Source: Promethearchaeia archaeon (GTDB lineage: Archaea > Asgardarchaeota > Lokiarchaeia > Sigyniarchaeales > SOKP01). From it: a DNA stretch of 18,703 nucleotides. Below the pieces are notes generated by a model. It was not told the origin of the DNA. It saw only the letters and a list, made by a program, of their open reading frames with translations, and searched no databases. How positions within the stretch are numbered: the first letter of the stretch is position 1; every line of letters starts with the position of its first letter. The translations under genes and the position numbers were made by a program. Of this stretch, positions 2,360 to 18,681 are shown piece by piece. The stretch spans positions 1 through 18,703 of the forward strand of contig JAHQWX010000004.1 in assembly GCA_029856375.1 (NCBI GenBank), read 5' to 3'.

Positions 2360-2417
2360 TTGAGTAGGACTATAATATTTTATAATCTCTCTTTAAAATG
2401 TATTAATGGAGTGTTTG

Positions 2418-4097: not shown

Positions 4098-4177
4098 AGC
4101 AAAAATTATTAAATCCCCATTAATTCTCCTTATTAATCCAATTAGATATAATTAAGTTAAATTCTAAAGTGATGAGT

Positions 4178-5506
4178 ATGAACAGAGACGAAAAAATTGA
4201 GGAAGTTCTCAAAACAATTAAGGAAAAAGAGATTGAGTTCGCAACATTAGAATTTACTGACATTAATGGAATTATAAAAAGTTTTGGCGTCACTACAGGA
4301 CGAATTGAGTCAATACTTAAAGAAGGCGAGCATTTCGATGGTTCCAGTATTACTGGGTACGGTTCAATCGAGGAATCAGACATGGTTGCAATTCCAGATC
4401 CATTTACATTTCACGAGATCCCTTGGGATATGGGAAATGGACTTGATGAGTGTGCCTTTTTGTGTGACATCTACGAACCTGATGGAAAAAGGTATGCAGG
4501 AGATCCGAGGTACATCCTCCAGAAAATAGCTGAAGAAGCGAAAAAAATGGGATACGAATTCATGTGCGCTCCTGAACTCGAATTCTTTATTTTAAAGGAG
4601 GAAGAATCCATCGAACCCAGAGATATGCGGGGCTATTTTGAAGCTGATCCACACTTAATCGACGAGCAAATGAGAAAGGAAATAGCCTACTACGCCAAAG
4701 AGTATGGAATCGAAATAGAGACGCTTCATCACGAAGTTGCGGAAGGACAGAGCGAAATTGATTTTAAATACGATACTGCGCTAAAAACTGCGAATCATAC
4801 TGTGTGGTTGAAAATGCTCGTGAAAGTGGTTGCTGCGCAATACGACTATATCGCTACATTTATGCCAAAACCATTCCAAAATGTAAACGGAAGCGGAATG
4901 CATGTCCATCAAAGTCTCTGGAAAGAAGGAAAAAACGCATTTTACTCGAAAACCAATGAGAACAATCTCTCTCAAGTAGCTAAGCATTTCATAGGGGGAC
5001 AGTTGAAATACGCAAAAGAAATGGCCGCCGTTCTGTGTAGTTGGCCTAACTCGTACAAGAGATTAGTACCCGGGTACGAAGCACCAGTTTATCTCGGTTG
5101 GGGTTTTAAAAATAGAAGCTCGCTTATTCGCGTACCAAACTATACGAGCGAGAAAGGTGCCAGATGCGAAATTCGCTGCCCCGATCCCGCGGGTAACCCT
5201 TACTTGCAATTAGCTGTATTGCTCGCAACTGGATTGGAAGGTATCAAGCAAAAAATCGAACCTCCAGAACCGAGCGATGTGAATGTCTATAAGTTGTCTA
5301 CGAAAGAAATGAAGAAACGAGGCATTGAAGCCCTTCCCGCAAACCTTTACGAAGCATTAATGGAATTTGAGAAGTCGGACCTGATGAAGAAGGTATTTGG
5401 AGAAAAAACATTTAGGAATTTTTTATGGGCAAAACTAGAAGAGTTTGATAAGTACAGAGTCGTGATTAGCGATTGGGAGTTCGAGAGATATGTTAGAAAA
5501 TTATAA
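4178..5506 (+). CDS. glnA: glutamine synthetase, type I (alpha-like)
   Basis: It makes glutamine from glutamate, ammonia and ATP and would supply every intact amidotransferase in this window. The frame opens with GTG 4169 and ATG 4172, but I prefer ATG 4178 (442 residues): GTGAT (4169-4173) then lies four bases upstream, the same spacing as at the RAM gene. The beta-grasp domain has the FDGSS motif. The catalytic domain has PELEFF with Glu133 and Glu135, EVAEGQSEID, NGSGMHVHQSL, NSYKRLVPGYEAP and NRSSLIRVP. The length and the short C-terminal region (ALPANLYEAL) fit the GSI-alpha group, which lacks the adenylylation site of enterobacterial enzymes. The position of B. subtilis Arg62, used for glutamine feedback, holds Ser63 (GYGSIEESDM). 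It may share a transcript with pyrG or use its own AT-rich promoter around 4106-4115. Confidence 0.97.
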   Translation: MNRDEKIEEVLKTIKEKEIEFATLEFTDINGIIKSFGVTTGRIESILKEGEHFDGSSITGYGSIEESDMVAIPDPFTFHEIPWDMGNGLDECAFLCDIYEPDGKRYAGDPRYILQKIAEEAKKMGYEFMCAPELEFFILKEEESIEPRDMRGYFEADPHLIDEQMRKEIAYYAKEYGIEIETLHHEVAEGQSEIDFKYDTALKTANHTVWLKMLVKVVAAQYDYIATFMPKPFQNVNGSGMHVHQSLWKEGKNAFYSKTNENNLSQVAKHFIGGQLKYAKEMAAVLCSWPNSYKRLVPGYEAPVYLGWGFKNRSSLIRVPNYTSEKGARCEIRCPDPAGNPYLQLAVLLATGLEGIKQKIEPPEPSDVNVYKLSTKEMKKRGIEALPANLYEALMEFEKSDLMKKVFGEKTFRNFLWAKLEEFDKYRVVISDWEFERYVRKL

Positions 5507-5512
5507 CCTTAA

Positions 5513-5578
5513 TTTTTTCACTTAAAATTCGCTCAAATTTGTTTACAAGCTTTATGTGTTTAGCCCTTCTATTTTTTT
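5513..5578 (+). terminator. T-tract terminators after glnA
   Basis: Two oligo-T runs follow the glnA stop: T6 at 5513-5518 and T7 at 5572-5578. They fit intrinsic archaeal termination and suggest that guaA is transcribed separately. No GC-rich hairpin is visible. Confidence 0.4.
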
Positions 5579-5592
5579 CTAATATATATTAG
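5579..5592. repeat. 14-bp perfect palindrome CTAATATATATTAG
   Basis: This self-complementary sequence lies directly after the T7 tract and 45 bases upstream of the putative guaA TATA box. It could be an operator or simply low-complexity AT DNA. Confidence 0.35.
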
Positions 5593-5635
5593 TTATATTT
5601 ACTTAATCAGCAATACCTTGTTAATCTCTCATTAG

Positions 5636-5662
5636 GATATAATTTAATACCAAAAAGTATTA
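5636..5662 (+). promoter_or_regulatory. candidate guaA TATA box with overlapping inverted repeat
   Basis: A TATA-like box (ATATAATTTA, near 5637-5646) runs into an inverted repeat: TAATAC (5645-5650) pairs exactly with GTATTA (5657-5662) across CAAAAA. A third GTATTA lies at 5682-5687. A repressor site just downstream of a TATA box would fit, with a leader of about 60 bases before guaA. Otherwise the 215-base gap shows only AT-rich DNA. Confidence 0.35.
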
Positions 5663-5721
5663 GTCCTATCAAGAATTTTTAGTATTAAAAAAGGAAATTT
5701 TCGCAAAGAATTAAATTCAAA

Positions 5722-7281
5722 ATGGATAATGTAATCGTTCTGGATTTTGGAGGTCAATACACTCACCTAATCGCAAGAAGGGTGCGAGATTTGGGAGTTT
5801 TCTCAGAAATTTATCCGTTCAATGTTGAAATTGATAAGTTAAAGATGCTTTTTCCGAAGGGTATCATTCTCTCGGGAGGACCAAGCAGCGTTTACGAAAA
5901 AAATAGCCCAAAATTACCAGAAGCTTTTTTTGATTATGTAAAAGCAGCAAATATTCCTATATTAGGAATTTGTTATGGATTTCATTTAATAATTCACCAA
6001 TTAGGTGGAAAAATTGAACCACATAAACAAAAAGAATACGGTAGAACAGAACTTGAAATTCTAAAATCTGGGATATTATTAGATTCGCTAGAAAATAAAG
6101 AGATTGTTTGGATGTCTCATGGAGATCGAGTTAAGACAATGCCCAAGGATTTTGAGATCTTAGCTAAAACTGAAACTTGTCCAATAGCTACATATGGGAA
6201 CGAAGCCTTGCGAATGTATGGTGTTCAATTCCACCCCGAAGTCGTGCACACTCCAAAAGGAAATGTTATTTTAAATAACTTCCTGAGTAAAATTGCTAAC
6301 GCTAAAAAGGAGTGGAAATTAGAAGATTGGATAAATAAAGCGATTGAAAAAATAAGGGATATTGTTGGACCAGATAAAAAGGTTATTTTAGGACTAAGTG
6401 GTGGCGTTGATTCGTCAGTAACTGCGGCGCTTATGCATAAATCGATTGGGGATCGATTGCACAGCATCTTTGTGAACAATGGAGTTTTAAGAAAAAACGA
6501 AGAAATTCAGGTACAGCAAAGTTTCAGAGACGATTTACAGTTTCAAAACTTTCACTATGTGGACGCTCAGCAGTTATTTATGGAGAAATTAAAAGGTATA
6601 GAAGATCCAGAAGAAAAGAGACGAATTATTGGACATACATTTATCGAAGTTTTCGAGAATAAGACAATTGAGCTTGAAAAAGAGTACCCCGATATCGAAT
6701 TTCTGGCTCAAGGAACGATTTATCCTGATCGAGTCGAAACAAGCGCGACAAGCAATGCCTCTGCGAGAATTAAATCTCATCATAACCTAACTCTTCCCGA
6801 CGATATGACGCTTAAAGTCATTGAACCGTTAAGAGATTTGTATAAAGACGAAGTAAGAAGAATTGGATTGAAGCTAGGAGTACCCAAGGAAATAATCAAT
6901 CGTCATCCATTTCCAGGACCAGGTCTGGCGGTAAGAATAATTGGCGCTATTGACAAGGAGAAACTCGACATATTAAGAGATGCTGACGAGATTTTAATTG
7001 AAGAAATAAAAAAAGCGGGCGTGTACGAAAAACTATGGCAAGCGTTTTGCGTGTTTTTGCCTTTGAAAACAGTTGGAATCATGGGAGATTATCGAACATA
7101 CGAATACATTTGCGCTATTAGGGTAGTAGAATCGTTAGATGCGATGACGGCTAATTTCGCAAAATTAGACATGGACTTGCTGGAGAAAATTGGAACGCGG
7201 ATAATAAACGAGGTTAAAGGGATTAATAGAGTTGTATACGATATTTCCAATAAACCTCCTTCGACAATTGAATACGAGTAA
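5722..7281 (+). CDS. guaA: GMP synthase (glutamine-hydrolysing), fused two-domain form
   Basis: It converts XMP to GMP with ATP and glutamine. At 519 residues it has the glutaminase and synthetase domains on one chain, whereas many euryarchaea encode them separately. The glutaminase domain (about 1-195) has Cys84 (GICYG) with His171 and Glu173 (QFHPE). The ATP pyrophosphatase domain has the SGGVDSS P-loop at 226-232. The XMP-binding dimerisation domain has HPFPGPGL at 395-402 and the family ending DISNKPPSTIEYE. One oddity is His88 (GICYGFH) where class I amidotransferases nearly always have Gln, the residue four after the nucleophile that contacts the glutamine substrate. No convincing ribosome binding site precedes the ATG. 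The gap to carA1 is only 58 bases with no T-tract, so the two may be co-transcribed. Confidence 0.97.
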   Translation: MDNVIVLDFGGQYTHLIARRVRDLGVFSEIYPFNVEIDKLKMLFPKGIILSGGPSSVYEKNSPKLPEAFFDYVKAANIPILGICYGFHLIIHQLGGKIEPHKQKEYGRTELEILKSGILLDSLENKEIVWMSHGDRVKTMPKDFEILAKTETCPIATYGNEALRMYGVQFHPEVVHTPKGNVILNNFLSKIANAKKEWKLEDWINKAIEKIRDIVGPDKKVILGLSGGVDSSVTAALMHKSIGDRLHSIFVNNGVLRKNEEIQVQQSFRDDLQFQNFHYVDAQQLFMEKLKGIEDPEEKRRIIGHTFIEVFENKTIELEKEYPDIEFLAQGTIYPDRVETSATSNASARIKSHHNLTLPDDMTLKVIEPLRDLYKDEVRRIGLKLGVPKEIINRHPFPGPGLAVRIIGAIDKEKLDILRDADEILIEEIKKAGVYEKLWQAFCVFLPLKTVGIMGDYRTYEYICAIRVVESLDAMTANFAKLDMDLLEKIGTRIINEVKGINRVVYDISNKPPSTIEYE

Positions 7282-7285
7282 TAAT

Positions 7286-7301
7286 AAAAGATAAATATAA
7301 G
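7286..7301 (+). promoter_or_regulatory. weak candidate promoter for carA1B1
   Basis: AAAAGATAAATATAAG contains an A-rich BRE-like stretch and a TATA-like core about 45 bases before the carA1 GTG. A start site 25 bases downstream would leave a leader of some 20 bases. Read-through from guaA is equally possible. Confidence 0.25.
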
Positions 7302-7339
7302 AAAAAATTTGAAATCTAAAATAGAAGTATGAACAGAAA

Positions 7340-8476
7340 GTGCTTTTAAAAAACGAGCGTCCAGCAATTCTCATGCTCCAAGATGGGAGATTTTTTAGAG
7401 GAATTGGCTTTGGCGCGTCGAAAATTCTAACGGGAGAACTCGTTTTTACTACAATCACTGGGGCGGGTTATCCCGAAACATTAACTGATCCTTCTTATCA
7501 AGGTCAAATAGTTATCATGACTCACCCGTTAGTGGGGAATTATGGCGTTCCTCCTTGGGAAAAAGACGAATATGGGATTATCAAGTATTTTGAGTCCGAT
7601 TCGATTAAAGTTACAGGTTATGTTGTGAACGAATGTTGCACGAATCCAAGCCATTACGAGAGCGTGAAAACCCTCGATGAGTTTCTTCAAGAGCAAGATG
7701 TGCCCGGGATTGAATGGATTGATACTCGTGCGATTACAAAAATATTACGAGAGGAAGGCGTGCAAATTGGACTTTTAGCTGTGTATGATGCCGGTGAAGA
7801 ACCTAGCATTGAAGAGTTAAAAAAAATGGTACAAAAAGCTGAAGATCCTAACTTACGACCTCTGTCAAGCGAAGTTTCCACGAAAGAAGTTAAAAAATAT
7901 AATCCGCTCAATCCCATTGGTAAAGTTGTCGTATTAGATATGGGTGTAAAATTAAACATTTTAAGAAATTTCGTTAAGCGAGGCATAGAAACTATCGTCG
8001 TTCCTTACAATTACAATTACGATCAAATCATGGCGCTTAAGCCAAACGGCGTGATTATTTCAAACGGTCCCGGCGACCCGGCAACATATAAAAACGCCAT
8101 TGAATTGTGTAAGCATTTAATCGAAAACGATATTCCCACATTTGGTATTTGTTTAGGCAACCAAATCATTGGGTTAGCCGCAGGTGGCACTTCTTTTAAG
8201 TTAAAATACGGACATCGCGGTGGAAATAAAACTGTAATTAATCCGGAGACAAAGAAATGTTACATTACTACTCAAAACCATGGTTTTTGCGTGAAAGATT
8301 TTGAAAAAGGAGGTTTTAAAGAGTTTTTAACCAACATTGACGACAACACGAATGAAGGGATTATACACAAAACTAAACCAGCGTTTGCCGTTCAATTCCA
8401 TCCCGAAGCGTGTCCAGGACCGTGGGATTCTCTCTATTTATTCGATAAATTCCTTGAAATTATGGAGCTGAAATAA
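7340..8476 (+). CDS. carA: carbamoyl-phosphate synthase small subunit, active glutaminase copy
   Basis: It hydrolyses glutamine and channels the ammonia to the large subunit. Translation starts at GTG 7340. An ATG at 7329 is out of frame, and the N-terminus lines up with that of the second copy. The N-terminal domain includes TDPSY with Ser52, matching the glutamine-contacting Ser47 of E. coli. The class I glutaminase domain keeps the full active site: Cys271 in GICLGNQ, Gln275, Asn313-His-Gly-Phe316, and His354 with Glu356 in QFHPEACPGP. The SNGPGDP and GHRGGN motifs of the oxyanion hole and tunnel region are also intact. It is 378 residues, usual for CarA. carB1 begins two bases after its stop, so the two are translated as a pair. 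I call this the glutamine-dependent copy. Confidence 0.97.
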   Translation: MLLKNERPAILMLQDGRFFRGIGFGASKILTGELVFTTITGAGYPETLTDPSYQGQIVIMTHPLVGNYGVPPWEKDEYGIIKYFESDSIKVTGYVVNECCTNPSHYESVKTLDEFLQEQDVPGIEWIDTRAITKILREEGVQIGLLAVYDAGEEPSIEELKKMVQKAEDPNLRPLSSEVSTKEVKKYNPLNPIGKVVVLDMGVKLNILRNFVKRGIETIVVPYNYNYDQIMALKPNGVIISNGPGDPATYKNAIELCKHLIENDIPTFGICLGNQIIGLAAGGTSFKLKYGHRGGNKTVINPETKKCYITTQNHGFCVKDFEKGGFKEFLTNIDDNTNEGIIHKTKPAFAVQFHPEACPGPWDSLYLFDKFLEIMELK

Positions 8477-8478
8477 CA

Positions 8479-11400
8479 ATGCCCTTAGATAAATCCATCA
8501 AAAAAGCGTTGGTACTAGGCTCTGGAGGAATCCGCATCGGTCAAGCTGGAGAGTTTGATTATTCTGGCTCGCAAGTTTTAAAAGCGTTAAAGGAAGAGGG
8601 CATCGAAACTATTCTCGTAAACGCAAACATAGCTACTATTCAAACAGATCCACAACTATCTGATCGAGTGTATTTATTACCGATTAATGTGAAATATATT
8701 GAGGAAGTAATCAAAAAGGAGAAGCCAGACGGAATTTTATTAGCGTTTGGTGGCCAGACTGCTCTAAATGTAGGGGTTGAGCTAAAAGAAGAGGGCATTT
8801 TGAAAAAATATGATATAAAAGTATTAGGAACACCAATTGAAGCGATTGAAGCGACTGAAGACCGCGATTTGTTTGTTCAAGCTATGAATCGAGCTGAAGC
8901 AAGCGTGTGTAAAAGTATCGCTGTGAGTTCTTTTACCGATGCGGTTAAAGCAGCAAGACAGATCGGCTTTCCTTTGATGATTAGGGTCGCATATACTCTG
9001 GGCGGTAGGGGTTCTGGATTAGTAGATAATATGAAAGATTTCGAAAAAATGGCTAGAAAAGGGCTCGCACAATCTAGAATTCACCAGATTTTAATCGAAG
9101 AAAGCGTATGGGGTTGGAAAGAAGTCGAATACGAAGTTGTTAGAGATGCGGAGGATAATTGTTTCATAAACTGCAATATGGAAAATTTCGATCCCGTTGG
9201 TATCCACACGGGGGAGAGCATTGTAGTTGCCCCTAGCCAAACGCTTACTAACGAAGAATATCATATGCTTCGCTCTGCTTCCATTCGAATCATTAGAAGC
9301 TTGGGAATTATCGGAGAATGCAACATACAATACGCGTTAGATGCGACTTCGAAAGAATTTCGCGTTATCGAGATTAACGCCCGATTATCGAGATCGTCAG
9401 CGTTAGCATCAAAAGCTACGGGATACCCATTGGCATATATAGCGGCTAAGCTAGCTATTGGATATACATTACCCGAATTGAAAAATAAAATTACAGGAAT
9501 CACCACCGCCTGTTTCGAACCTGCTTTAGATTATCTTGTTTTGAAAATTCCACGATGGGACCTGCCAAAATTTCAAAGAGTCGACCGACATATAGGTACT
9601 CAAATGAAAAGCGTTGGAGAAGTAATGGCTATTGGACGAACATTCGAGGAAGTGTTACAAAAAGCAATTCGAATGCTCGATATTGGTATGAAAGGACTAG
9701 TTGCAAATGAATTAGAACCAATTACTGACTTAAACGAATTGAAATACGAATTGAACAATCCAACAGATTTGAGAGTATTTCGCTTAGTGGAAGCAATTAA
9801 GCGAGGGCTCTCGCTCGACGAAATATATCGTCTCTCGCGAGTTGATAAGTGGTTTCTACACAAAGTTAAGAATATAATTGATGTCGAGAACCAATTGGAA
9901 AAAGTCGACTTCTTGTCTTCGCCTGACGAGGAGAAACAATACTTATTGGAAAGAGCTAAGAGGTATGGCTTCTCAGATGGGCAAATCGCAAAAATTATGG
10001 GCGTTGATACGATTAAAGTAAGGCAAATGAGAAAGAAATACGGAATTGTGCCTTATGTAAAAAGGATCGACACCCTCGCAGCGGAATGGCCTGCTATTAC
10101 CAATTATTTGTATTTAACTTATGCAGCTACGGAACATGATATCGATTTTGAAGAGGAAAACGCAAAAAAAATGAGAAAAGTGATTGTGCTTGGCTCCGGA
10201 ACTTATCGTATTGGAGCATCCGTGGAGTTCGATTGGGGATCCGTTAATTGCTTATGGGGTTTAAAGAAATTAGGCATAGATCAAGCTATAATAATTAATT
10301 ACAATCCTGAAACTGTCAGTACCGACTACGACATTTCGGATAAATTGTATTTTGAAGAACTCTCCGGAGAGAGAGTAGTCGATATTTGCGAGTTGGAGAA
10401 AGCCGATGGAGTGGTAGTTTCTGTCGGCGGGCAAATCGCTAACAACCTAGCTGCAAAATTCTCGAAGTATCACGAATTTTTTAGAAAAACCAGACTAAAT
10501 ATATTAGGTACTCATGGTACTCGAATAGACATGGCAGAAAATCGAAGTAAATTCAGTAAGCTATTAGATCAATTGAAGATAAATCAACCCGAGTGGAACG
10601 CTTTAACTAAAAAAGAAGCTGCGCTCTCCTTTGCTCAGCAAGTAAAATATCCCGTATTGGTGCGACCATCGTATGTTTTAAGCGGTGCGGCAATGCGCGT
10701 GTCTTACGATGAGAAGACGCTTAAGGACACGCTCGATTTAGCTGCAGCAGTGTCAAACGAGTATCCGGTCGTCATTACGAAATTTTTTACGGATGCCAGA
10801 GAAGTCGAATGCGATGGCGTTTGCGATGGAGAAAATGTATTTATTGGCGCAATTGTTGAACATATCGAAAACGCGGGAATTCACAGCGGAGACGCTACGA
10901 TGTCTATCCCACCTCAAACGATTTCTGAAAGCGTAATCCAACAAATTGAGAAAAATACAAGAGATATCGCTTTAGCACTTAAAATCCACGGACCGTTTAA
11001 CATTCAGTACCTTGTAAAAAACAATCAAGTATATGTTATTGAATGCAACCTTCGCTCGTCGCGATCAATGCCTTATGTCTCTAAAACGCGCGGCATTAAT
11101 TTGATGCGCCTTGCAGCCGAGGTGTTTATGGGTAATAAAATCCCAGAAAAATTAATGGATTTACCGCTTGGAAATTATGTTTCCATTAAAGCTCCAATGT
11201 TTTCGTTCATGAGATTAGATAAAGCGGATCCAATTCTAGGTGTAGAAATGGCATCGACTGGCGAAGTTGCGTGCATTGTGAACGATTTTCCAGAAGCATT
11301 GATAAAATCCTTAGAAGCCACCGAGCAATACATTCCAGTTGATGGGGGAAATGTACTTATCTCAGTTGGTGGGGAAGAATTAAAAAAACAAGTAATTCCT

Positions 11401-11790
11401 TTGGCAAAAAAATTGAAAAACATGGGATTTATGATTTTCGCGACTGAAGATACATCCCTCGCTTTAAAAGAGAATGGAATTGAATCAGTGAGACTTTATA
11501 AAGTCCATGAGGTTGGAAAAGAACCCAACATCATGAAATGTTTGTTAGACGGGCGCATCGACATGGTAATCAATATTCCAATGCCTACAACCGTTGAGGA
11601 AAAATTCAAGACAATCATTGAAGACGAATATAAAATCAGGAGAATGGCGGTGGATTATAATATCCCCGTTATCGTTAATTTGGAGCTCGCTGAAGCCATT
11701 GTTGACGCAATCGAAAAAGTTCGCGAGAAAAAAGTGACAATCAAATCTCTCAACGAGTACCACGAAACTCTAAAGGAAGTATACTGGTAA
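8479..11790 (+). CDS. carB: carbamoyl-phosphate synthase large subunit, copy 1
   Basis: It makes carbamoyl phosphate from bicarbonate, ammonia and two ATP, feeding pyrimidine and arginine synthesis. The chain of 1103 residues (E. coli about 1073) is a duplicated ATP-grasp enzyme. The first half has the GSGGIRIGQAGEFDYSG dinucleotide-type loop, LGGRGSG, and the metal site Glu298-x-Asn300-x-Arg302. A helical connector of about residues 420-560 includes DTLAAEW at 531-537. The second half has VEFDWGSV, SYVLSGAAM and Glu855-x-Asn857-x-Arg859. The C-terminal regulatory domain has TEDT (989-992), KVHE (1008-1011) and IRRMAVD. Several second-half blocks (VIECNLRSSRS, EMASTGEVAC) are closer to eukaryotic CAD/CPS1 than to E. 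coli CarB. It follows carA1 by two bases; GGAG inside carA1 lies 11 bases before its ATG. Confidence 0.97.
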   Translation: MPLDKSIKKALVLGSGGIRIGQAGEFDYSGSQVLKALKEEGIETILVNANIATIQTDPQLSDRVYLLPINVKYIEEVIKKEKPDGILLAFGGQTALNVGVELKEEGILKKYDIKVLGTPIEAIEATEDRDLFVQAMNRAEASVCKSIAVSSFTDAVKAARQIGFPLMIRVAYTLGGRGSGLVDNMKDFEKMARKGLAQSRIHQILIEESVWGWKEVEYEVVRDAEDNCFINCNMENFDPVGIHTGESIVVAPSQTLTNEEYHMLRSASIRIIRSLGIIGECNIQYALDATSKEFRVIEINARLSRSSALASKATGYPLAYIAAKLAIGYTLPELKNKITGITTACFEPALDYLVLKIPRWDLPKFQRVDRHIGTQMKSVGEVMAIGRTFEEVLQKAIRMLDIGMKGLVANELEPITDLNELKYELNNPTDLRVFRLVEAIKRGLSLDEIYRLSRVDKWFLHKVKNIIDVENQLEKVDFLSSPDEEKQYLLERAKRYGFSDGQIAKIMGVDTIKVRQMRKKYGIVPYVKRIDTLAAEWPAITNYLYLTYAATEHDIDFEEENAKKMRKVIVLGSGTYRIGASVEFDWGSVNCLWGLKKLGIDQAIIINYNPETVSTDYDISDKLYFEELSGERVVDICELEKADGVVVSVGGQIANNLAAKFSKYHEFFRKTRLNILGTHGTRIDMAENRSKFSKLLDQLKINQPEWNALTKKEAALSFAQQVKYPVLVRPSYVLSGAAMRVSYDEKTLKDTLDLAAAVSNEYPVVITKFFTDAREVECDGVCDGENVFIGAIVEHIENAGIHSGDATMSIPPQTISESVIQQIEKNTRDIALALKIHGPFNIQYLVKNNQVYVIECNLRSSRSMPYVSKTRGINLMRLAAEVFMGNKIPEKLMDLPLGNYVSIKAPMFSFMRLDKADPILGVEMASTGEVACIVNDFPEALIKSLEATEQYIPVDGGNVLISVGGEELKKQVIPLAKKLKNMGFMIFATEDTSLALKENGIESVRLYKVHEVGKEPNIMKCLLDGRIDMVINIPMPTTVEEKFKTIIEDEYKIRRMAVDYNIPVIVNLELAEAIVDAIEKVREKKVTIKSLNEYHETLKEVYW

Positions 11791-11882
11791 AACGCGCTCC
11801 TTAAATAACCACTCGCTTCCGAATTACTATTCAATAACATCACGCAATCAATCAATTATTGACTGGTTATTATAATGCGAAA

Positions 11883-11890
11883 TATAAATT
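11883..11890 (+). promoter_or_regulatory. candidate carA2B2 TATA box
   Basis: TATAAATT lies 50-58 bases before the carA2 ATG in a 150-base gap with no T-tract after carB1. A start site near 11910 would leave a leader of about 30 bases. This suggests that the second synthase can be expressed independently of the first, although read-through is not excluded. Confidence 0.4.
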
Positions 11891-11891
11891 A

Positions 11892-11924
11892 ATTAGTTAT
11901 ATTATCTATACAAGAATAACTAAT
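11892..11924. repeat. 9-bp inverted repeat spanning the expected carA2 start site
   Basis: ATTAGTTAT (11892-11900) is the exact reverse complement of ATAACTAAT (11916-11924), with a 15-base spacer. It starts two bases after the TATA-like box and covers the predicted transcription start, where archaeal repressors often bind. Its AGTTAT core also occurs in the purF-pyrG repeat (2303-2308) and upstream of guaA (5591-5596). Confidence 0.45.
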
Positions 11925-11940
11925 ATTATTTTGATATAAG

Positions 11941-13077
11941 ATGATTTACAAGTCTGAAAAACCTGCCATGTTAATGTTTCAAGACGGAACTTATTTTGAA
12001 GGTATTGGATTTGGAGCCACCAAAAAAGTTATGGGAGAAATAACCTTTTCCACAGTCCCTGGTTCAGGTTATGTAGAGGTATTAACCGATTGCACCTACA
12101 AAGACCAAATTGTACTTTTTACATATCCCTCCATTGGAAATTACGGTGTTCCTGCGAAGATACAAGACGAGTTCGGAATAGTGAAGCAGTTCGAATCCGA
12201 TTCGATTAAATTGAAAGGTATGATTGTAAACGAATATTGCAAACTACCGAGCCATTATGAAAGCGTGAGAACCTTGGAAGACTGGTTGGTAGAAGAGGGT
12301 ATGCCAGCAATACAATGGATTGATACGAGGAGAATAACCCAACAGTTAGTTGAGGAAGGGAGTAAATTAGGCGTACTACAAGTGCTTGAAAAAGGAGAAA
12401 CGCCAGACATTGAAAAATTAAAAGAAGAAGTGCAACAAGTTGAAGATCCAACGAATAAAGATTTCGTTAATCTGGTTTCTGTTAAAGATGTAAAAAAATA
12501 TACCCCCACAAATCCAATAGGAACAGTTGTCGTACTTGACATTGGGCTGAAAAACAACATTTTAAGAACTCTGCTTTCGAAAAATATTGAGGTAATCGTA
12601 GTTCCGTATACTTCTAACTACGAAAAAATAAAGAGTTTCAATCCTAGCGGTGTTTTAATAACTAATGGACCAGGAAATCCAACCCTTTTAACTGAAACAA
12701 TTAATACCGCAAAAATTTTGATGGAAAATAGCGTTCCTACTATGGGGATTGGCTTAGGAAATGTTATTATTGGATTAGCAGCTGGTGCGAGCGCGTATAA
12801 AATGACTGCAGAACATCGTGGTGGGCGCACAACCGTAGAAAGCGCAACGGGACATTGCTATATAACTTTTCAAAATCACTCTTATTGCATAACGGATGTA
12901 GAAAAAAATGGATTCAAGCAATTATATCACGATAAAGACGATGAGACGAACGAGGGTTTAATTCACGAGAATAAACCTATTTTTTCGGTCGCTTTCAATC
13001 CAGAAGCGTCTCCTGGAGCCTTAGACACCAAAGACATGATTTTTAATAAATTCATTGAGCTAATGGAGGTAAAATAA
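11941..13077 (+). CDS. carbamoyl-phosphate synthase small subunit paralogue with a dead glutaminase site
   Basis: This is a full-length CarA homologue (378 residues, intact frame). By hand count about 40 of the first 70 aligned residues after the start match copy 1. The fold motifs remain, but the glutamine site does not. The nucleophile Cys is Gly271 (GIGLGN), the Gln four residues later is Val275, the catalytic His is Asn353 (AFNPEASPG, Glu355 kept), the substrate-loop Gly-Phe after Asn312-His is Ser314-Tyr315, TDPSY is TDCTY, and GGN is GGR. CarA needs Cys and His for hydrolysis, so this subunit should not use glutamine. Loss of several contacts in an otherwise intact protein argues for maintained non-catalytic use. 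The likely role is a structural partner for an ammonia-fed CarB2. carB2 starts three bases after the stop, with GGAGGT at 13065-13070 inside this gene. Confidence 0.93.
   Translation: MIYKSEKPAMLMFQDGTYFEGIGFGATKKVMGEITFSTVPGSGYVEVLTDCTYKDQIVLFTYPSIGNYGVPAKIQDEFGIVKQFESDSIKLKGMIVNEYCKLPSHYESVRTLEDWLVEEGMPAIQWIDTRRITQQLVEEGSKLGVLQVLEKGETPDIEKLKEEVQQVEDPTNKDFVNLVSVKDVKKYTPTNPIGTVVVLDIGLKNNILRTLLSKNIEVIVVPYTSNYEKIKSFNPSGVLITNGPGNPTLLTETINTAKILMENSVPTMGIGLGNVIIGLAAGASAYKMTAEHRGGRTTVESATGHCYITFQNHSYCITDVEKNGFKQLYHDKDDETNEGLIHENKPIFSVAFNPEASPGALDTKDMIFNKFIELMEVK
13065..13070 (+). promoter_or_regulatory. carB2 ribosome binding site inside carA2
   Basis: GGAGGT lies ten bases before the carB2 ATG and within the last codons of carA2. 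It is the strongest Shine-Dalgarno match in the window and indicates coupled, high-level translation of the second large subunit. Confidence 0.6.
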
Positions 13078-13080
13078 ATT

Positions 13081-16000
13081 ATGCCATTAGATAAATCGCT
13101 TAAAAAGGTTTTAATCTTAGGGTCAGGTGCCGTAAGAATCGGACAAGCTGGTGAATTCGATTATAGTGGAAGCCAAGTGCTTAAAGCCTTAAACGAAGAG
13201 GGAATTGAGACAATTCTAATCAATCCTAACATTGCAACCATCCAAACAGACCCACAAATGTCTTCGAAGGTATATCTACTTCCCATCAATGTGAAATATT
13301 GCGAAGAAATAATAAAAAAGGAAAGGCCCGATGGAATTTGTTTAGCGTTTGGTGGACAAACGGGGCTGAATGTAGGCGTGGAACTTGAAGAAGCAGGTAT
13401 ATTAGAGAAGTACAATGTGAAAGTATGCGGAACTCCAGTTAAAGCAATTGAAGCTACTGAAGATAGGGACTTATTCGTCCAGGCAATGGAAAGATCTGAT
13501 TGTCCCGTTTGCAAGAGTAAAGCTGTTAATAGCTACGCTGATGCCAAGAAGGTGGCAGAAGAGCTTGGATTCCCATTGATAATAAGAGTAGGATATGTTC
13601 TTGGAGGTAGAGGGTCCGGTTTTGTACACAATTGGGAGCAATTTGAGCGGATTGCGAAGAGGGGTTTAGCACAATCGAGAATTCATCAGATATTAATCGA
13701 GGAATCCGTATGGGGATGGAAAGAGATTGAATTTGAAATTCTGAGAGATGCTGAAAACAATTGCTTCATTAATTGTAGCATGGAAAATGTCGATCCTTGT
13801 GGGATTCACACTGGAGATTCAATAGTTGTAGCACCAGCCCAAACTTTACCAGACGAAGAGCTCCAGATGCTTCGATCAGCTTCAATTAGGGCTACTCAAG
13901 AGGTAGGTGTATGTGGAGAATGTAATATCCAGTGGGCGCTTGATCCTTTTTCTAAGAGATACAGAGCAATTGAAATTAACGCCCGATTGTCCAGATCTTC
14001 TGCCCTCGCTTCTAAAGCCACAGGATATCCATTGGCTTATATTGCAGCTAAAATAGCTATAGGCTATACTTTACCAGAATTAAAAAACCAGATCACGCTT
14101 AAAACAACAGCTAATTTCGAGCCAGCCACAGATTATATGGTTTTAAAATTTCCTCGTTGGGATCTAACGAAATTCGAAAGTGTAGATCGACATATTGGTC
14201 CACAGATGAAAGGGGTTGGCGAATGCATGAGCATTGGTCGAAATTTTGAGGAGGTGTGTCAAAAAGCAATTAGAATGCTAGATATTGGATTCAAAGGTTT
14301 TGTGGGTAATGATTTAGCACCAATTGAAGATATCAACGAATTAAAATACGAGTTAAGAAATCCCACGGATTTAAGATTCCTAAGGATTGGAGAAGCGATT
14401 AAAAGAGGAATTTCAATCGACGAAATATACGAAAGATCGATGGTTGATAAGTGGTTTTTGTATAAATTAAAAAATATTATAGATATCGAGGAGGAGCTCA
14501 AAAATCTGGATTTCTTAGGATCGTCTGACGAAGATAAACAATATTTGATTGAACGGGCTAAAAGGTACGGCTTTTCAGACGGTCAAATTGCTAAAATATT
14601 AGGCTTAGATACACCAACTATAAGGCGATTAAGGAAAAGATATAACATCGTTCCTTATGTGAAGCAAATTGACACTTTAGCCGGGCAATGTCCCCCAACT
14701 CGGCATTATTTATACCTTACCTATTGGGGAGATAAGCACGATGTAGATTTTGATAAAGAAGAAAAAGATAGACTAAAGAAGGTAATCGTGTTAGGTTCTG
14801 GAACCTATCGAATAGGGGCCTCCGTAGAGTTCGATTGGGGATCTGTCAATTGTTTATGGGGTTTGCAAAAATTAGATGTTGATAAAGCGATTATCATCAA
14901 TTATAATCCCGAAACAGTATCAACCGATTACGATATACCGGACCGTTTGTATTTCGAAGAACTATCTGGTGAAAGAGTGTTAGATATTTGCGAATTGGAA
15001 AAACCTTTTGGCGTTGTTCTAAATGCTGGGGGTCAAATTGCGCAAAATTTAGCTGCAAAATTCGCCAAATACTCCGAATTTTACCGAAAAGCGAATATTA
15101 ACATTTTGGGAACTCACGGCTCTCGCATAGATATGGCAGAAGACCGTTCTAAATTTAGCAGCTTACTCGATCAACTTGGCATTAAACAACCCGAATGGGC
15201 TATGTTGACCACTAAGGAAGAAGCTTTAGAATTTGCGAAGAAAGTAGGGTATCCTGTTCTTGTAAGACCTTCCTATGTACTAAGTGGTGCTGCGATGCGA
15301 GTTTCTTACGACGAGAAGACTTTAAGGGACACGCTCGATCTCGCAGCTGCAGTCTCGAGGGAATATCCTGTTGTTATCACAAAATTCTTTACGGATTCCA
15401 AGGAGGTTGAATGCGACGGAATTTGCGACGGAACAAATGTGTTGATTGGCGCAATCGTCGAACACATAGAAAATGCGGGAGTACATAGCGGAGACGCAAC
15501 AATGTCCATACCCCCTCAAACCATTTCAAAGAATGTAGTTGAACAAATTAATAAATATACAAGGGATATAGCGCTCGCGCTTAAAATTATGGGACCATTT
15601 AACATTCAATACTTAGTAAAAAACGAAGAGGTATTTGTCATCGAATGTAATTTGCGCTCAAGCAGGAGCATGCCCTATGTTAGTAAGTGTATTGGCTTAA
15701 ATTTGATGAAAATTGCAGCGGAGGTAATTATGGGAAAAAAGATTCCAGAAAATCTATTAAATTTACCTTATGGAAATTTTGTTGGGGTTAAATCGCCAAT
15801 GTTTTCCTTCATGCGATTAGATAACGCCGATCCAATCTTGGGAGTTGAAATGAACTCAACTGGAGAAGTTGCATGCATCGGCGAAGATATGCCTGATGCG
15901 CTCATGAAATCGTTGGAAGCCACCGAGATGAAAATCCCCGTTGAGGGCGGAAACATATTAATCTCTGTTGGTGGTGAAGAGTTAAAACGACAAGTTATAC

Positions 16001-16392
16001 CCCTCGCTAAAAAACTAAAGAACTTGGGTTTTGCCATCTTTGCAACCGAAGATACAGCTAAGGTTCTTAGAAACGAAGGTGTTGAGGCAGTTAAGTTATA
16101 TAAAGTTCACGAGCAAGGAATGGAACCAAACATAAAGAGTTGCATGATGGATGGGCGTATAGATATGGTTATTAATATTCCTTTGCCCACTACGGTCGAA
16201 GAAAAGTTTAGACAAATTATTGAAGACGAATTTCAAATAAGGAGGATGGCAGTGGATTTTAACATTCCAGTAATCGTGAATTTACAGTTAGCTGAAGCGA
16301 TTATCGACGCTATTGAAAAGACGCGTAAAAAAGAAATAGTTGTGAAATCGCTCAACGAGTATCACCAGGAATTAAAGGAAATATATTGGTGA
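13081..16392 (+). CDS. carbamoyl-phosphate synthase large subunit, copy 2 (predicted ammonia-dependent)
   Basis: It is collinear with copy 1 (1103 residues, key residues at identical numbers) and matches it at about 51 of the first 60 positions by hand count. The active-site elements I checked in both ATP-grasp halves are kept: GSGAVRIGQAGEFDYSG, LGGRGSG, Glu298-x-Asn300-x-Arg302, VEFDWGSV, SYVLSGAAM and Glu855-x-Asn857-x-Arg859. The regulatory domain keeps TEDT, KVHE and IRRMAVD. The clearest change I found is in the connector: the almost invariant AAE after Asp-Thr is Ala534-Gly535-Gln536, followed by CPPTRHYLYLTYWG, where copy 1 has AAEWPAITNYLYLTY. With its partner CarA2 unable to hydrolyse glutamine, this enzyme should take free ammonia. 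Its product would feed arginine, pyrimidines or an ammonia-handling route; nothing here decides which. Confidence 0.95.
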   Translation: MPLDKSLKKVLILGSGAVRIGQAGEFDYSGSQVLKALNEEGIETILINPNIATIQTDPQMSSKVYLLPINVKYCEEIIKKERPDGICLAFGGQTGLNVGVELEEAGILEKYNVKVCGTPVKAIEATEDRDLFVQAMERSDCPVCKSKAVNSYADAKKVAEELGFPLIIRVGYVLGGRGSGFVHNWEQFERIAKRGLAQSRIHQILIEESVWGWKEIEFEILRDAENNCFINCSMENVDPCGIHTGDSIVVAPAQTLPDEELQMLRSASIRATQEVGVCGECNIQWALDPFSKRYRAIEINARLSRSSALASKATGYPLAYIAAKIAIGYTLPELKNQITLKTTANFEPATDYMVLKFPRWDLTKFESVDRHIGPQMKGVGECMSIGRNFEEVCQKAIRMLDIGFKGFVGNDLAPIEDINELKYELRNPTDLRFLRIGEAIKRGISIDEIYERSMVDKWFLYKLKNIIDIEEELKNLDFLGSSDEDKQYLIERAKRYGFSDGQIAKILGLDTPTIRRLRKRYNIVPYVKQIDTLAGQCPPTRHYLYLTYWGDKHDVDFDKEEKDRLKKVIVLGSGTYRIGASVEFDWGSVNCLWGLQKLDVDKAIIINYNPETVSTDYDIPDRLYFEELSGERVLDICELEKPFGVVLNAGGQIAQNLAAKFAKYSEFYRKANINILGTHGSRIDMAEDRSKFSSLLDQLGIKQPEWAMLTTKEEALEFAKKVGYPVLVRPSYVLSGAAMRVSYDEKTLRDTLDLAAAVSREYPVVITKFFTDSKEVECDGICDGTNVLIGAIVEHIENAGVHSGDATMSIPPQTISKNVVEQINKYTRDIALALKIMGPFNIQYLVKNEEVFVIECNLRSSRSMPYVSKCIGLNLMKIAAEVIMGKKIPENLLNLPYGNFVGVKSPMFSFMRLDNADPILGVEMNSTGEVACIGEDMPDALMKSLEATEMKIPVEGGNILISVGGEELKRQVIPLAKKLKNLGFAIFATEDTAKVLRNEGVEAVKLYKVHEQGMEPNIKSCMMDGRIDMVINIPLPTTVEEKFRQIIEDEFQIRRMAVDFNIPVIVNLQLAEAIIDAIEKTRKKEIVVKSLNEYHQELKEIYW

Positions 16393-16409
16393 TCTTAATA
16401 AATATGTGA

Positions 16410-16417
16410 TTTTTTTT
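16410..16417 (+). terminator. T8 tract after carB2
   Basis: Eight T follow the carB2 stop within 20 bases, a plausible intrinsic archaeal terminator. It lies before the RAM gene, which may then have its own promoter (AT-rich sequence TTAATAAATAT near 16395-16405) or receive leaky read-through. Confidence 0.4.
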
Positions 16418-16444
16418 AATTTAAAACAAAAAAAAGTGATAAAA

Positions 16445-16732
16445 ATGTATTATAGAGGATATATATTAGTTAGGTTAAAAATTATAGGCGAAGAATGGAA
16501 AGTGGTCGAAAAAATAAGCGGATTAAAGTCCACTGAAGCAGGAGAAAATTGGGAAGTGTCCTACGCAACTCCAGTATACGGAGGATGGGACCTGATAATC
16601 GAGTGCTCCTTTACCAAACTCGAAGAATTAGATAAAATAGTTACCGCTTTAAGAAGCGATTCTGAAATTGCTTCTGCAATTGAAGAAACAACGACCCTAT
16701 GCGGGACAAAACCAAATTATTCAAAAAATTAA
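16445..16732 (+). CDS. stand-alone Lrp/AsnC-type ligand-binding (RAM) domain protein
   Basis: I start it at ATG 16445 (95 residues), not GTG 16406, because GTGAT (16436-16440) sits four bases upstream. The chain looks like the RAM domain of Lrp/AsnC regulators: an initial strand GYILVRLKI, a VVEKISGLK helix-turn, the characteristic GGWDLIIE strand, a LEELDKIVTALR helix, and a final TTTLCGT strand. No helix-turn-helix is present, so it should not bind DNA alone. Stand-alone RAM proteins in archaea form oligomeric rings with amino acids bound between subunits and may act on partner proteins. It lies 52 bases after carB2, so sensing an amino acid for the nitrogen genes, or acting on the synthase itself, is a reasonable guess only. 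Another dimeric alpha-beta-barrel family is the main alternative. Confidence 0.65.
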   Translation: MYYRGYILVRLKIIGEEWKVVEKISGLKSTEAGENWEVSYATPVYGGWDLIIECSFTKLEELDKIVTALRSDSEIASAIEETTTLCGTKPNYSKN

Positions 16733-16735
16733 ATA

Positions 16736-16744
16736 TTTTTTTTT
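16736..16744 (+). terminator. T9 tract after the RAM gene
   Basis: Nine T lie just after the RAM gene stop, in the short convergent gap before the PIG-L gene on the other strand. Two copies of ATTAGAAATT follow directly. Confidence 0.45.
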
Positions 16745-16755
16745 ATTAGAAATTA

Positions 16756-17436
16756 TTAGAAATTATAGTATTTTCCATAATCTTTTAATTCAAAAATTGC
16801 TATCCTTCTAGTTCTCGAGTATTTTATAAATCTATTCAGTGTTTTCCAAAACTGTGGCATTAAGCTCTGAGACTCGTAAATCTGAAGCCATTCTAAAAGT
16901 CTGGACCTCAAAGTTTTACTAATATTTATTAAGATTTGCTTATCTTCAGAATCTCTATTAAAAACTCCATATAATGGTAAAAAATAAACCCAATACTCCA
17001 AATTCTTTAAATTTAATTCCTTAGCAGCGCCCATACAAATGTCGTGAGCAGCCTGATGGTCTTTATGTTTGTTATTTTTACTCGGCAAAACCACTCGATT
17101 CGCATCTTTAATAATTCCTTTTACTCTTTCAATACCTTCTTCTACATATTTCTGCCCGTCAGCGTCTTTAAAATCCAAATAGTGGTGATTCATTTGAGAT
17201 AATCCTAAAAACTCAATAACCTTTTTAGATTCTTGGAACCTCAATTCCCTTACTTTGTCTGCGGACATGAATCTAATCTCATCACTTAACTCCTCTGGAG
17301 AGGTTTCATAACATTTAGAACCATCTGTTATTGTTATGATATGTAAATCGTGTCCTTCCTTTAACCAGTCAAAAACGAAATGACCAGCGCCCAATAAAAG
17401 GTCGTCTGGGTGAGGTTCAAAAATTACAATCTTCAA
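16756..17436 (-). CDS. PIG-L/LmbE family zinc deacetylase, copy 1
   Basis: This family removes acyl groups, typically acetyl, from amino sugars such as GlcNAc-inositol lipids, GlcNAc-Ins and bacillithiol precursors, at a single zinc. Visible motifs are PHPDD near the start (His9, Asp12 as zinc ligands, Asp11 as the likely base), DGS at 38-40, and HKDHQAAH with His127 as the probable third ligand. Leu follows HPDD where Glu is commonest. At 226 residues it is about family size and has no signal peptide or membrane segment, so it is probably cytoplasmic. The start is TTG at 17436; a stop lies a few codons upstream in frame, and the HPDD motif leaves no room for a later start. It ends in GKYYNF, the same six residues as copy 2, so the two are paralogues. 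The substrate cannot be told. Confidence 0.85.
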   Translation of the reverse strand: MKIVIFEPHPDDLLLGAGHFVFDWLKEGHDLHIITITDGSKCYETSPEELSDEIRFMSADKVRELRFQESKKVIEFLGLSQMNHHYLDFKDADGQKYVEEGIERVKGIIKDANRVVLPSKNNKHKDHQAAHDICMGAAKELNLKNLEYWVYFLPLYGVFNRDSEDKQILINISKTLRSRLLEWLQIYESQSLMPQFWKTLNRFIKYSRTRRIAIFELKDYGKYYNF

Positions 17437-17524
17437 GTCTAATTACTCTATTTTAATAATTCTAATTTTGTATTTCTTATTTTTCTTTTTATTCGTTTAT
17501 TTTGATTTTTTTAGATAGATTTGA

Positions 17525-17596
17525 CAAAATTGTAAAAACTTAAATTTGCATAAGAACAGAAGATATTGTTTTATAATTTTATAAAACTCAATTTTG
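17525..17596. repeat. nested inverted repeats upstream of the 107-residue gene
   Basis: An inner perfect repeat, GTTTTATAA-TT-TTATAAAAC (17568-17587), lies inside an outer pair, CAAAATTG (17525-17532) and CAATTTTG (17589-17596). The first could be a compact operator overlapping a TATA box. The DNA is very AT-rich, so chance is a real alternative. Confidence 0.4.
17537..17548 (+). promoter_or_regulatory. candidate promoter of the 107-residue gene
   Basis: The AAACTTAAATTT-like stretch resembles a BRE plus TATA box about 80-90 bases upstream of the ATG. A second AT box inside the repeat at 17568-17587 would give a shorter leader of about 20 bases. The sequence cannot decide between them. Confidence 0.3.
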
Positions 17597-17613
17597 TAAA
17601 AAAACCAATTAAA

Positions 17614-17619
17614 AGGTGA
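17614..17619 (+). promoter_or_regulatory. ribosome binding site AGGTGA
   Basis: AGGTGA lies seven bases before the ATG at 17627 and fixes the start of the small gene. It complements the usual archaeal 16S rRNA 3' end. Confidence 0.6.
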
Positions 17620-17626
17620 AAAAAAT

Positions 17627-17950
17627 ATGCCATATGTTATGGTTACATCGTGGGTTCCAAATATAAGAGTAAATAAATCGGTAGAAATTTATATGGAATT
17701 AATGAAAAAATACCCTCCTCAAGATTGGGAAAACGATGTCGTACTATTGGGCGTAATGGCGGATGGCGATTGTATTAAATCTATTTCCGTTTCTGAAGTT
17801 CCAAAAGCGAAACTAGGCGAGGCGATGGAGCTTGCAGCTAAAAGAATGCTATTATTCTGGCCTATTGAGGGCTATAGATATGTAATTGACACACTATTAA
17901 CGGGATCTGAAGCCATGCCAATGATAGGAAAAGCTATGCCTCAAGTGTAA
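17627..17950 (+). CDS. small protein of unknown function
   Basis: I do not recognise this 107-residue protein with confidence. It is likely real: it has a good AGGTGA ribosome binding site, codon use like its neighbours, a T10 tract after its stop and an upstream AT-rich promoter region. It begins with a hydrophobic strand (PYVMVTSWVP), then a helix (VEIYMELMKKYP), a second strand (VVLLGVMADGD), the ISVSEVPKAKLGEAMELAAKRM strand-helix, and a last strand before an Ala/Met/Pro-rich tail. That order is compatible with a ferredoxin-like or dimeric alpha-beta barrel fold. There is no signal peptide, membrane helix or Cys motif. It sits between two paralogous PIG-L deacetylase genes on the other strand, sharing a divergent promoter region with the first. 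No function is assigned. Confidence 0.75.
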   Translation: MPYVMVTSWVPNIRVNKSVEIYMELMKKYPPQDWENDVVLLGVMADGDCIKSISVSEVPKAKLGEAMELAAKRMLLFWPIEGYRYVIDTLLTGSEAMPMIGKAMPQV

Positions 17951-17984
17951 TATCTTCAGGATTTAATTTTAATTATCCAAATTC

Positions 17985-17994
17985 TTTTTTTTTT
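17985..17994 (+). terminator. T10 tract after the 107-residue gene
   Basis: Ten T lie about 35 bases after the stop codon, in the convergent gap with the second PIG-L gene. This fits archaeal intrinsic termination. Confidence 0.45.
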
Positions 17995-18006
17995 CAATTT
18001 TTTCAT

Positions 18007-18681
18007 TTAGAAATTATAATACTTCCCAATATCGTCGAAACTGTATACGCCGAATCGTTCTTTTCGTTTTCTTAGGATTAATTTGTAATACATGTCAACG
18101 GTGGTGATGTATAGTTGAGATTTGTATTTTCCTAAGGCTTTGTAAACCTTGTCCCTATATGGCACGATGTCAATAAACACTTGTTTTTCTTTTGGTGTCT
18201 TGTTTCTAACATAAAGGATATAGCTATAAAATTCCACTTCTTTCAAACCTAATTCCTTAGCGGCCCCTACAGCAATATCATAGGTCGCTTGATGGTCCTC
18301 GTGAACATTATTATTGCTGGGTAATACAATTCGATCAGCGTCTTTTATAATTTCTTTACTTTTTTCGATTCCTTCTTTAATGTGATTCTTTACATCTTGG
18401 TCTGGTAGCATAAACTTATGGATGTTCTGACGAGGTAAATTTAAATATTCAATAACATCGTCGATTTCTTTCATTCGAATTGCTACTAATTCTTCTTCTG
18501 ATATTTGTGTTTCTTCAGCTTCTACGAGTCGTCCCATCTTTCTCTCGAATGTATATGCCGCCCTTCCATCGGAGATGTAAATTATGTGTACTTCATGTCC
18601 CTCTTCCATCCATTTTAAAATGCTGCCCCCGGCCCCTCCTAATTCGTCGTCCGGATGCGGTGCAAAAACTACGATCTTCAT
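18007..18681 (-). CDS. PIG-L/LmbE family zinc deacetylase, copy 2
   Basis: It has the canonical family signature PHPDDELGGAGG (His9, Asp11, Asp12), ISDGR near 36-40, and HEDHQATYD with His130 as the likely third zinc ligand. Its 224 residues begin at ATG 18681. No signal peptide or membrane helix is seen. It shares with copy 1 the MKIVxFxPHPDD opening, the GIE(K/R)xKxIIKDAxRxVLPS block and the GKYYNF ending, so the two arose by duplication. The segment between DGR and the next helix differs most (Glu-rich ERKMGRLVEAEETQ here), which could mean a different substrate. Members act on N-acetylated amino sugars or lipids; the substrate here is unknown. Only 22 bases upstream are in the window, so its promoter is not fully visible. 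Confidence 0.9.
   Translation of the reverse strand: MKIVVFAPHPDDELGGAGGSILKWMEEGHEVHIIYISDGRAAYTFERKMGRLVEAEETQISEEELVAIRMKEIDDVIEYLNLPRQNIHKFMLPDQDVKNHIKEGIEKSKEIIKDADRIVLPSNNNVHEDHQATYDIAVGAAKELGLKEVEFYSYILYVRNKTPKEKQVFIDIVPYRDKVYKALGKYKSQLYITTVDMYYKLILRKRKERFGVYSFDDIGKYYNF

Follow-up and report, generated by a model that had tools for sequence, protein, structure and literature searches.

The window analysed in this study, an 18,703-base contig of a Promethearchaeia archaeon (genome G000, which is fragmentary, with 2.54 Mb in 503 contigs and 69% completeness), encodes two carbamoyl-phosphate synthases (CPSs), CarA1B1 and CarA2B2, and the sequence of the latter suggests that it is very probably a CPS that is unable to hydrolyse glutamine and takes free ammonia instead. 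Because both catalytic residues of its glutaminase subunit are gone and its synthase subunit is complete, ammonia use is the simplest reading. In the reaction proposed here, CarB2 would make carboxyphosphate, ammonia would arrive without glutamine, and the carbamate would then be phosphorylated as in any CPS. CarA2 would be retained for a structural role beside CarB2, and the rebuilding of its loop at the position of E. coli Gly293 suggests that it may also help to shape the path of ammonia. The carbamoyl phosphate produced would feed pyrimidines and possibly, in genomes with argG, arginine.

Residue replacements in CarA2 and the state of CarB2

The features on which this proposal stands are as follows.

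11941..13077, plus strand: carA2, CarA-fold small subunit of 378 aa with an ATG start; predicted inactivated glutaminase (pseudo-glutaminase)
12751..12753, plus strand: codon 271 of carA2, Gly for the nucleophile Cys (E. coli Cys269)
12763..12765, plus strand: codon 275 of carA2, Val for the Gln of GxCxGxQ
12826..12828, plus strand: codon 296 of carA2, invariant Arg right after a one-residue deletion beside the E. coli Gly293 position (ammonia-tunnel loop)
12997..12999, plus strand: codon 353 of carA2, Asn for the catalytic His (E. coli His353)
13081..16392, plus strand: carB2, putative dedicated synthase subunit of 1103 aa with an ATG start; ATP-grasp motif and gate residues intact
13717..13935, plus strand: residues 213-285 of CarB2, carboxyphosphate-site and ammonia-gate stretch, with clade-specific fixed changes at 13/59 conserved sites

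The residues of CarA2 were placed by aligning it with three sequences, namely the CarA1 of the window, CarA of E. coli and human CPS1. The initial annotation had named Gly271 in place of the nucleophile and Asn353 in place of the catalytic His; both are seen in these alignments, and both recur in 11/11 CarA2 genes from separate genomes. The reading frame is, as had also been stated, intact over its full length. In E. coli, glutamine hydrolysis requires both Cys269 and His353, according to the available text of PMC6245113. CarA2 lacks the Cys and His by which class I amidotransferases are recognized, Gly271 and Asn353 being invariant in its clade, and the view that its glutaminase is dead is supported at the level of sequence. 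Three further replacements noticed at first are present in the window but are not fixed: Val275 is one of nine different residues found across the clade, Thr52 in place of Ser is T in 83/103 rows with eight states, and the loop NHSY for NHGF, that is, Ser-Tyr for Gly-Phe, is mostly Gly-Tyr or Ala-Tyr elsewhere in the clade. The positions that contact glutamine drift, unlike the invariant positions 271 and 353.

A database search returned 998 homologues, the best 120 of which were examined; they were picked by similarity to CarA2, so that their ratio of 102:18 is not a natural frequency. Gly and Asn occur together in 102/102 proteins nearer to CarA2 (the window protein included) and Cys and His in 18/18 nearer to CarA1, with no mixed state at the two positions, and the split by overall identity is the same as the split by residue. 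In a larger set of 192 rows, in which duplicates between sets were kept, locus CarA rows were kept only if longer than 300 aa and groups were split by the residue at 271, that position holds 112 Gly and 80 Cys (59 from the family and 21 from the outgroup) and no third residue. Asn353, the one-residue deletion and Arg296 are found in 112/112 of the Gly-type rows; it is the multiple alignment that places the deletion beside Gly293, while the pairwise HMMER alignment to E. coli sets the gap further on, and the loop numbering was counted by hand.

CarA2 scores 347.3 bits against TIGR01368, the model of the glutamine-hydrolyzing CPS small subunit, above the curated cut-off of 307.35, and its AlphaFold model (mean pLDDT 94.2) finds its best fold matches in E. 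coli CarA and human CPS1. Among the best 120 of the 998 homologues, CarA2-type proteins are often named "glutamine-hydrolyzing carbamoyl-phosphate synthase small subunit" in NCBI records, presumably because such proteins pass TIGR01368. To judge from the missing nucleophile and catalytic His, this name would not fit CarA2.

CarB2 scores 1400 bits against TIGR01369, the model of the CPS large subunit (cut-off 1027). The earlier statement that it keeps its ATP-grasp residues is borne out, the motif residues that were checked being present in 11/11 CarB2 rows, as are three ammonia-gate residues, Cys232, Ala251 and Ala313, which correspond to Cys648, Ala667 and Ala729 of CPS1. Fixed differences between the two synthases, counted at sites that are 90% conserved in both CarB1 (26 rows) and CarB2 (11 rows), are concentrated in the N-terminal half, the carboxyphosphate half in which ammonia attacks, with 32/286 in residues 1-404, 7/71 in 405-560, 5/230 in 561-945 and 0/70 in 946-1103, the allosteric domain (residues 1-404 against the last two regions, 5/300: Fisher p=1.5e-6). 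The stretch of residues 213-285 stands out from the rest of the N-half with p=0.005, a value to be read with the fact that the stretch was picked after the positions had been seen. CarB2 of G015 (L038:6713-10021) is a natural recombinant, with an N-half of the CarB2 type and a C-half that groups with CarB1 of G015 and G007, and appears from its sequence to be a clear case of gene conversion between paralogues. It still stands with CarA2 and retains the CarB2-type N-half, which suggests that the part staying matched with CarA2 is the ammonia-receiving half.

Distribution and history of the CarA2B2 clade

From 97 related genomes that were searched, 75 distinct CarA sequences, whole genes or fragments, were retrieved and read. 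Eleven are of the CarA2 type (10 full length and one fragment in G022), all in family f1 and all with Gly and Asn, while the remaining 64/75 retain Cys and, where they reach the second motif, His. Matches of CarA2 strength are confined to 10 f1 genomes among 227 genomes of the phylum; eight matches were left unread by residue, all below the lowest CarA2 score (in G024, G165, G168, G169 and G170, the second copy in G060, and two in G171). A contig scan with two peptide patterns from the CarA2 alignment found nine loci, all from Lokiarchaeota/Lokiarchaeia and all already among the genomes studied. Host names among the best 120 homologues, where given, are Lokiarchaeota, Promethearchaeota, Hermodarchaeota or Hodarchaeota.

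In the phylogenetic trees, from which the two G022 fragments (<250 aa) were excluded for CarA and rows of <900 aa for CarB, CarA2 is monophyletic with a support of 100/100 (10 rows) and lies beside CarA1 within the Lokiarchaeal CarA tree. CarA1 and CarA2 are grouped against the genes of G001, G002 and G004 with a support of 96/92, and CarB2 is also monophyletic (SH-aLRT 100, 11 rows). The ratio of nonsynonymous to synonymous substitution rates (dN/dS), the check that had been proposed for carA2, indicates purifying selection, at about 0.12 where measurable: by NG86 it is 0.115, 0.123 and 0.133 in the 3/5 listed pairs that are unsaturated, both pairs with the window gene being saturated, and 0.05-0.11 in four finite pairs of CarA1. 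Neutral decay of carA2 was looked for in relatives and none was seen, 10/10 full-length loci being intact with the Gly and Asn replacements kept. The identities of the glutaminase domain and the N-domain, 0.63 vs 0.69 in CarA2 and 0.75 vs 0.81 in CarA1, stand in a similar proportion, and the glutaminase domain of CarA2 is not preferentially decaying.

The pair was initially described as being kept next to a normal CPS. Such a tandem, carA1B1-carA2B2, exists in 5/11 genomes, namely G000, G009, G029, G020 and G030, where carB1 is cut by the contig end. In 3/11 (G010, G015 and G017) the two enzymes are encoded on different contigs, in 1/11 (G022) both are present as fragments, and in 2/11, G018 and G057, only CarA2B2 was found, each genome showing a single CarA and a single CarB of type 2 and no glutamine-type CPS. 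The archaeal search that had been suggested at the same time, for CarA2 always beside a CarB and accompanied by a second intact carAB, gave a similarly divided answer, because carB2 is adjacent in 10/10 full loci and a second carAB was found in neither G018 nor G057. The carA2B2 genes of these two genomes occupy the place of carA1B1 in G043, as indicated in both by BLASTP matches of the preceding gene and of the transporter gene beyond the following side, and the small open reading frame (ORF) described below is common to the three car loci.

A carA1B1-carA2B2 tandem followed by reciprocal loss is the likely history. The whole carAB would have been duplicated after the lineage of G001, G002 and G004 branched off, and the ancestral order carA1B1-carA2B2-small ORF would later have been lost, moved or kept alone depending on the lineage. 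Those three genomes, which belong to the genus of the window, have a single carAB that branches outside CarA1 and CarA2; it lies at the address pyrG-glnA-guaA-car-LmbE in G002 and G004, and G001 has glnA inverted and two extra genes. When positions 2406-18681 of the window are compared with L045, L047 and, in part, L046, the tandem is seen to occupy this native carAB address of the genus. CarA1 of G000 is 84% identical to that of G021 and 63% to that of G004, in contrast to PyrG, with 79% identity to G004 and 73% to G021, and the tandem unit has therefore probably replaced the native carAB in place by gene transfer. As a separate observation, carA1 and carB1 of G010 are separated by about 3 kb that contain three small ORFs and an opposite-strand ORF of 398 aa (L042:9300-12418), probably an insertion.

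The gene order in the window is purF, pyrG, glnA, guaA, carA1-carB1 (7340-11790), carA2-carB2 (11941-16392) and the small ORF (16406-16732), where the first four genes were named by reading their translations and family models confirm the identity of CarA and CarB. The range first assigned, 11941..16392, covers the carA2-carB2 pair and leaves out carA1B1 and the small ORF of the same unit, which are given here.

7340..8476, plus strand: carA1, ordinary glutamine-type small subunit; Cys, His and Gln all present
8479..11790, plus strand: carB1, ordinary synthase subunit
16406..16732, plus strand: small ORF, 108 aa from GTG; its relatives point to a start at or near an internal MYYRGY
L035:3466-3765, L036:9066-9359, L034:5204-5497, L033:5877-6179 and L050:16027-16323: relatives of the small ORF

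The identity between the two systems of the window is 54% for CarA1 and CarA2 and 76% for CarB1 and CarB2, and carA2 and carB2 are two separate ORFs with a stop codon and 3 bases between them. GuaA, PyrG and PurF of the window retain their Cys motifs, as read from the translations, so the loss is specific to CarA2 and does not reflect a general loss of glutamine use. The small ORF comes after carB2 in G000, G030, G009, G057 and G018 and after carB1 in G043. Searches of Pfam and NCBIfam gave no family for it at E 1e-3, and its similarity to PF01037, the Lrp/AsnC ligand-binding domain, is weak (E 0.011, below the cut-off). This small uncharacterised protein, encoded after carB in six genomes, may be a regulator.

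Alternative roles and the physiological setting

Several points weigh against an ammonia-using CarA2B2. E. coli CPS takes ammonia only at a very high and probably unphysiological concentration, as stated in the available text of PMC6245113. Part of the clustering of CarB2 changes in the N-half could be due to conversion of the C-half sequence by carB1, although the clustering persists with p=5.6e-6 when the G015 row is removed. The completeness and contamination of metagenome-assembled genomes limit claims of absence; G018 is 99% complete with 6% contamination and G057 97% complete with 9%. Both genomes also have carbamate kinase beside ornithine transcarbamoylase, so that the breakdown of arginine could supply carbamoyl phosphate and CarA2B2 is not necessarily its sole source. 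Finally, no CarA or CarB was found in G008, G011 and G016, which are 92-99% complete and have transcarbamoylase-family genes, and a CPS is therefore not strictly demanded in the family. On the other side, CPS1 demonstrates that loss of the Cys together with ammonia use is viable, as described in the accessible part of PMC4655335.

One alternative, which is compatible with ammonia use and differs only as to the role, is that the product of CarA2B2 serves a special purpose, either the cyanide ligands of [NiFe] hydrogenase via HypF or a pool reserved for arginine, with pyrimidines left to CarA1B1. HypF uses carbamoyl phosphate in the maturation of [NiFe] hydrogenase, and hypF is a direct neighbor of carA2B2 in G010, with an AIRS-family (HypE-like) gene close by, but the hypF adjacency is seen in one genome only. 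In that locus (L040:3194-13084), carA2B2 stands between the HypE-like gene, with a 4Fe-4S gene intervening, and hypF. The arginine version is favored by the presence of argG above the cut-off in 8/11 CarA2 genomes vs 4/18 others tested; argG, however, follows genus lines, so that its association with CarA2 is confounded and was not adopted, and no argG above the cut-off was found in G018 or G057, the genomes with CarA2B2 only. We consider such a dedicated role rather unlikely, though worth keeping in mind. As a side observation, one or two in-frame stop codons were reported in the argG matches of G000, G007, G008, G020 and G021 despite long open frames.

It is improbable that CarB2 is fed by a working glutaminase, either CarA1 swapped onto it or another one docked, with CarA2 competing as a regulatory subunit to shut down the use of glutamine. 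The similarity of CarB1 to CarB2 and the adjacency of the two pairs in five genomes would permit an exchange of subunits, but G018 and G057 have CarA2B2 with no CarA1 found, and CarA2 and CarB2 are neighbors in every full locus and have co-diverged. Slightly more doubtful still is a sensor role for CarA2, in which it would gate CarB2 by binding, but not cleaving, glutamine or a different amino acid. PDB 1a9x, entitled "caught in the act of glutamine hydrolysis", likewise has Asn at the catalytic His position in the alignment, which we take to be an engineered mutation, and the former catalytic positions of CarA2 are invariant instead of drifting; the drift of the glutamine contacts, including Ser52 and the Gly-Phe loop, nevertheless speaks against this role. 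That CarA2 is a decaying paralogue or an artefact of sequencing or assembly can practically be dismissed, and was rejected, because even though it diverged faster than CarA1, its full-length loci are intact, its dN/dS is low and identical replacements are shared by the 102 proteins mentioned above.

Under the ammonia-using interpretation, the physiological role may differ by lineage, with pyrimidines as the destination in G018 and G057 and possibly arginine where argG is present. Aspartate transcarbamoylase, PyrB, is kept in G018 and G057 (370 and 362 bits, cut-off 237). The organisms might live with high ammonia, for instance as amino-acid fermenters, as was first suggested. The ammonium transporter AmtB was considered as a marker of the CarA2 clade and rejected: it occurs in 4/11 CarA2 genomes vs 2/18 others, and although amtB is located 4-5 kb past carB2 in two genomes of a single genus, G020 and G029, it also lies about 16 kb from carA1 in G021, which has only CarA1B1, and the arrangement looks like a general nitrogen island.

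Comparison with CPS1 and other systems

As far as the sequence tells, CarA2B2 resembles CPS1, the human liver enzyme, in its way of working, without CPS1's own features. In the available text of PMC4655335, CPS1 has lost the glutaminase Cys, with Ser294 at its position, and uses ammonia, and Gln318 at the position of E. coli Gly293 blocks the old tunnel. CarA2 likewise has no glutaminase Cys and stands with an intact synthase, its tunnel loop is changed at the Gly293 position, and it has GPGN in place of GPGD. CPS1 is the top-scoring PDB relative of CarA2 by sequence and is tied with E. coli CarA by fold. The two nevertheless differ in that CarA2 has Gly271 and has lost the His, whereas CPS1 has Ser and keeps the His; in the tunnel loop, which has a one-residue deletion and Arg in CarA2 and Gln in CPS1; and in architecture, CarA2B2 being composed of two subunits and CPS1 of a single fused chain. 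Among the residues of the N-acetylglutamate site of CPS1 named in the accessible part of PMC4655335, Thr1391, Thr1394 and Asn1437 are kept, and Trp1410 and Asn1449 are not conserved, in one pairwise alignment. The independent origin proposed in the initial annotation agrees with the position of the CarA2 clade beside the local CarA1 and with the different replacements. CarA2 is 38% identical to CPS1 vs 54% to CarA1, which speaks for a local origin, the CarA tree having been built without CPS1; with the same reservation on the tree, an origin from eukaryotic CPS1 is unsupported.

CarA2 differs from E. coli CarAB and other glutamine-dependent CPSs of the TIGR01368/TIGR01369 type in having neither nucleophile nor catalytic His. 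The E. coli mutants C269G and H353N reportedly lose glutamine use and keep ammonia activity. The same two positions are changed in E. coli CarA C269S (PDB 1c30) and in the 1a9x chain, but in CarA2 the changes are natural, occur together, are conserved in the clade and are accompanied by a co-diverged CarB. Other glutamine-free routes to carbamoyl phosphate in archaea, through carbamate kinase in Pyrococcus and from arginine in Thermococcus, are described in the available texts of PMC6022934 and PMC13260591; they employ unrelated enzymes, in contrast to CarA2B2, where an ordinary ATP-grasp CPS would have been retained and re-purposed.

The available text of PMC4655335 states that glutamine is used by all CPS types except CPS1, and that of PMC6245113 describes bacterial CPSs as glutamine enzymes. 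Among the open-access matches listed, within which subscription journals mostly do not fall, no Cys-less CarA from archaea or bacteria is described in titles and abstract openings. The archaeal clade would represent a separate instance of glutaminase loss, through other residues than in CPS1, allowing tests of the fate of the tunnel, of the synthase residues that must co-change and of why a dead subunit is kept, and it exposes a public misannotation, "glutamine-hydrolyzing", on many CarA2-type genes. It is possible, and we propose it tentatively, that an Asgard clade evolved a natural CPS dedicated to ammonia, its dead glutaminase serving as a re-engineered ammonia port, the old site being cleared by Gly271 and Asn353 and the Gly293 loop rebuilt, with the carboxyphosphate half retuned to physiological ammonia, and that this enzyme is the sole CPS in some species. 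The finding bears on how nitrogen is metabolised in the closest archaeal relatives of eukaryotes and, if the tentative proposal is true, would represent a second, independent invention of a step of the vertebrate urea cycle, with pyrimidines made from free ammonia in some species.

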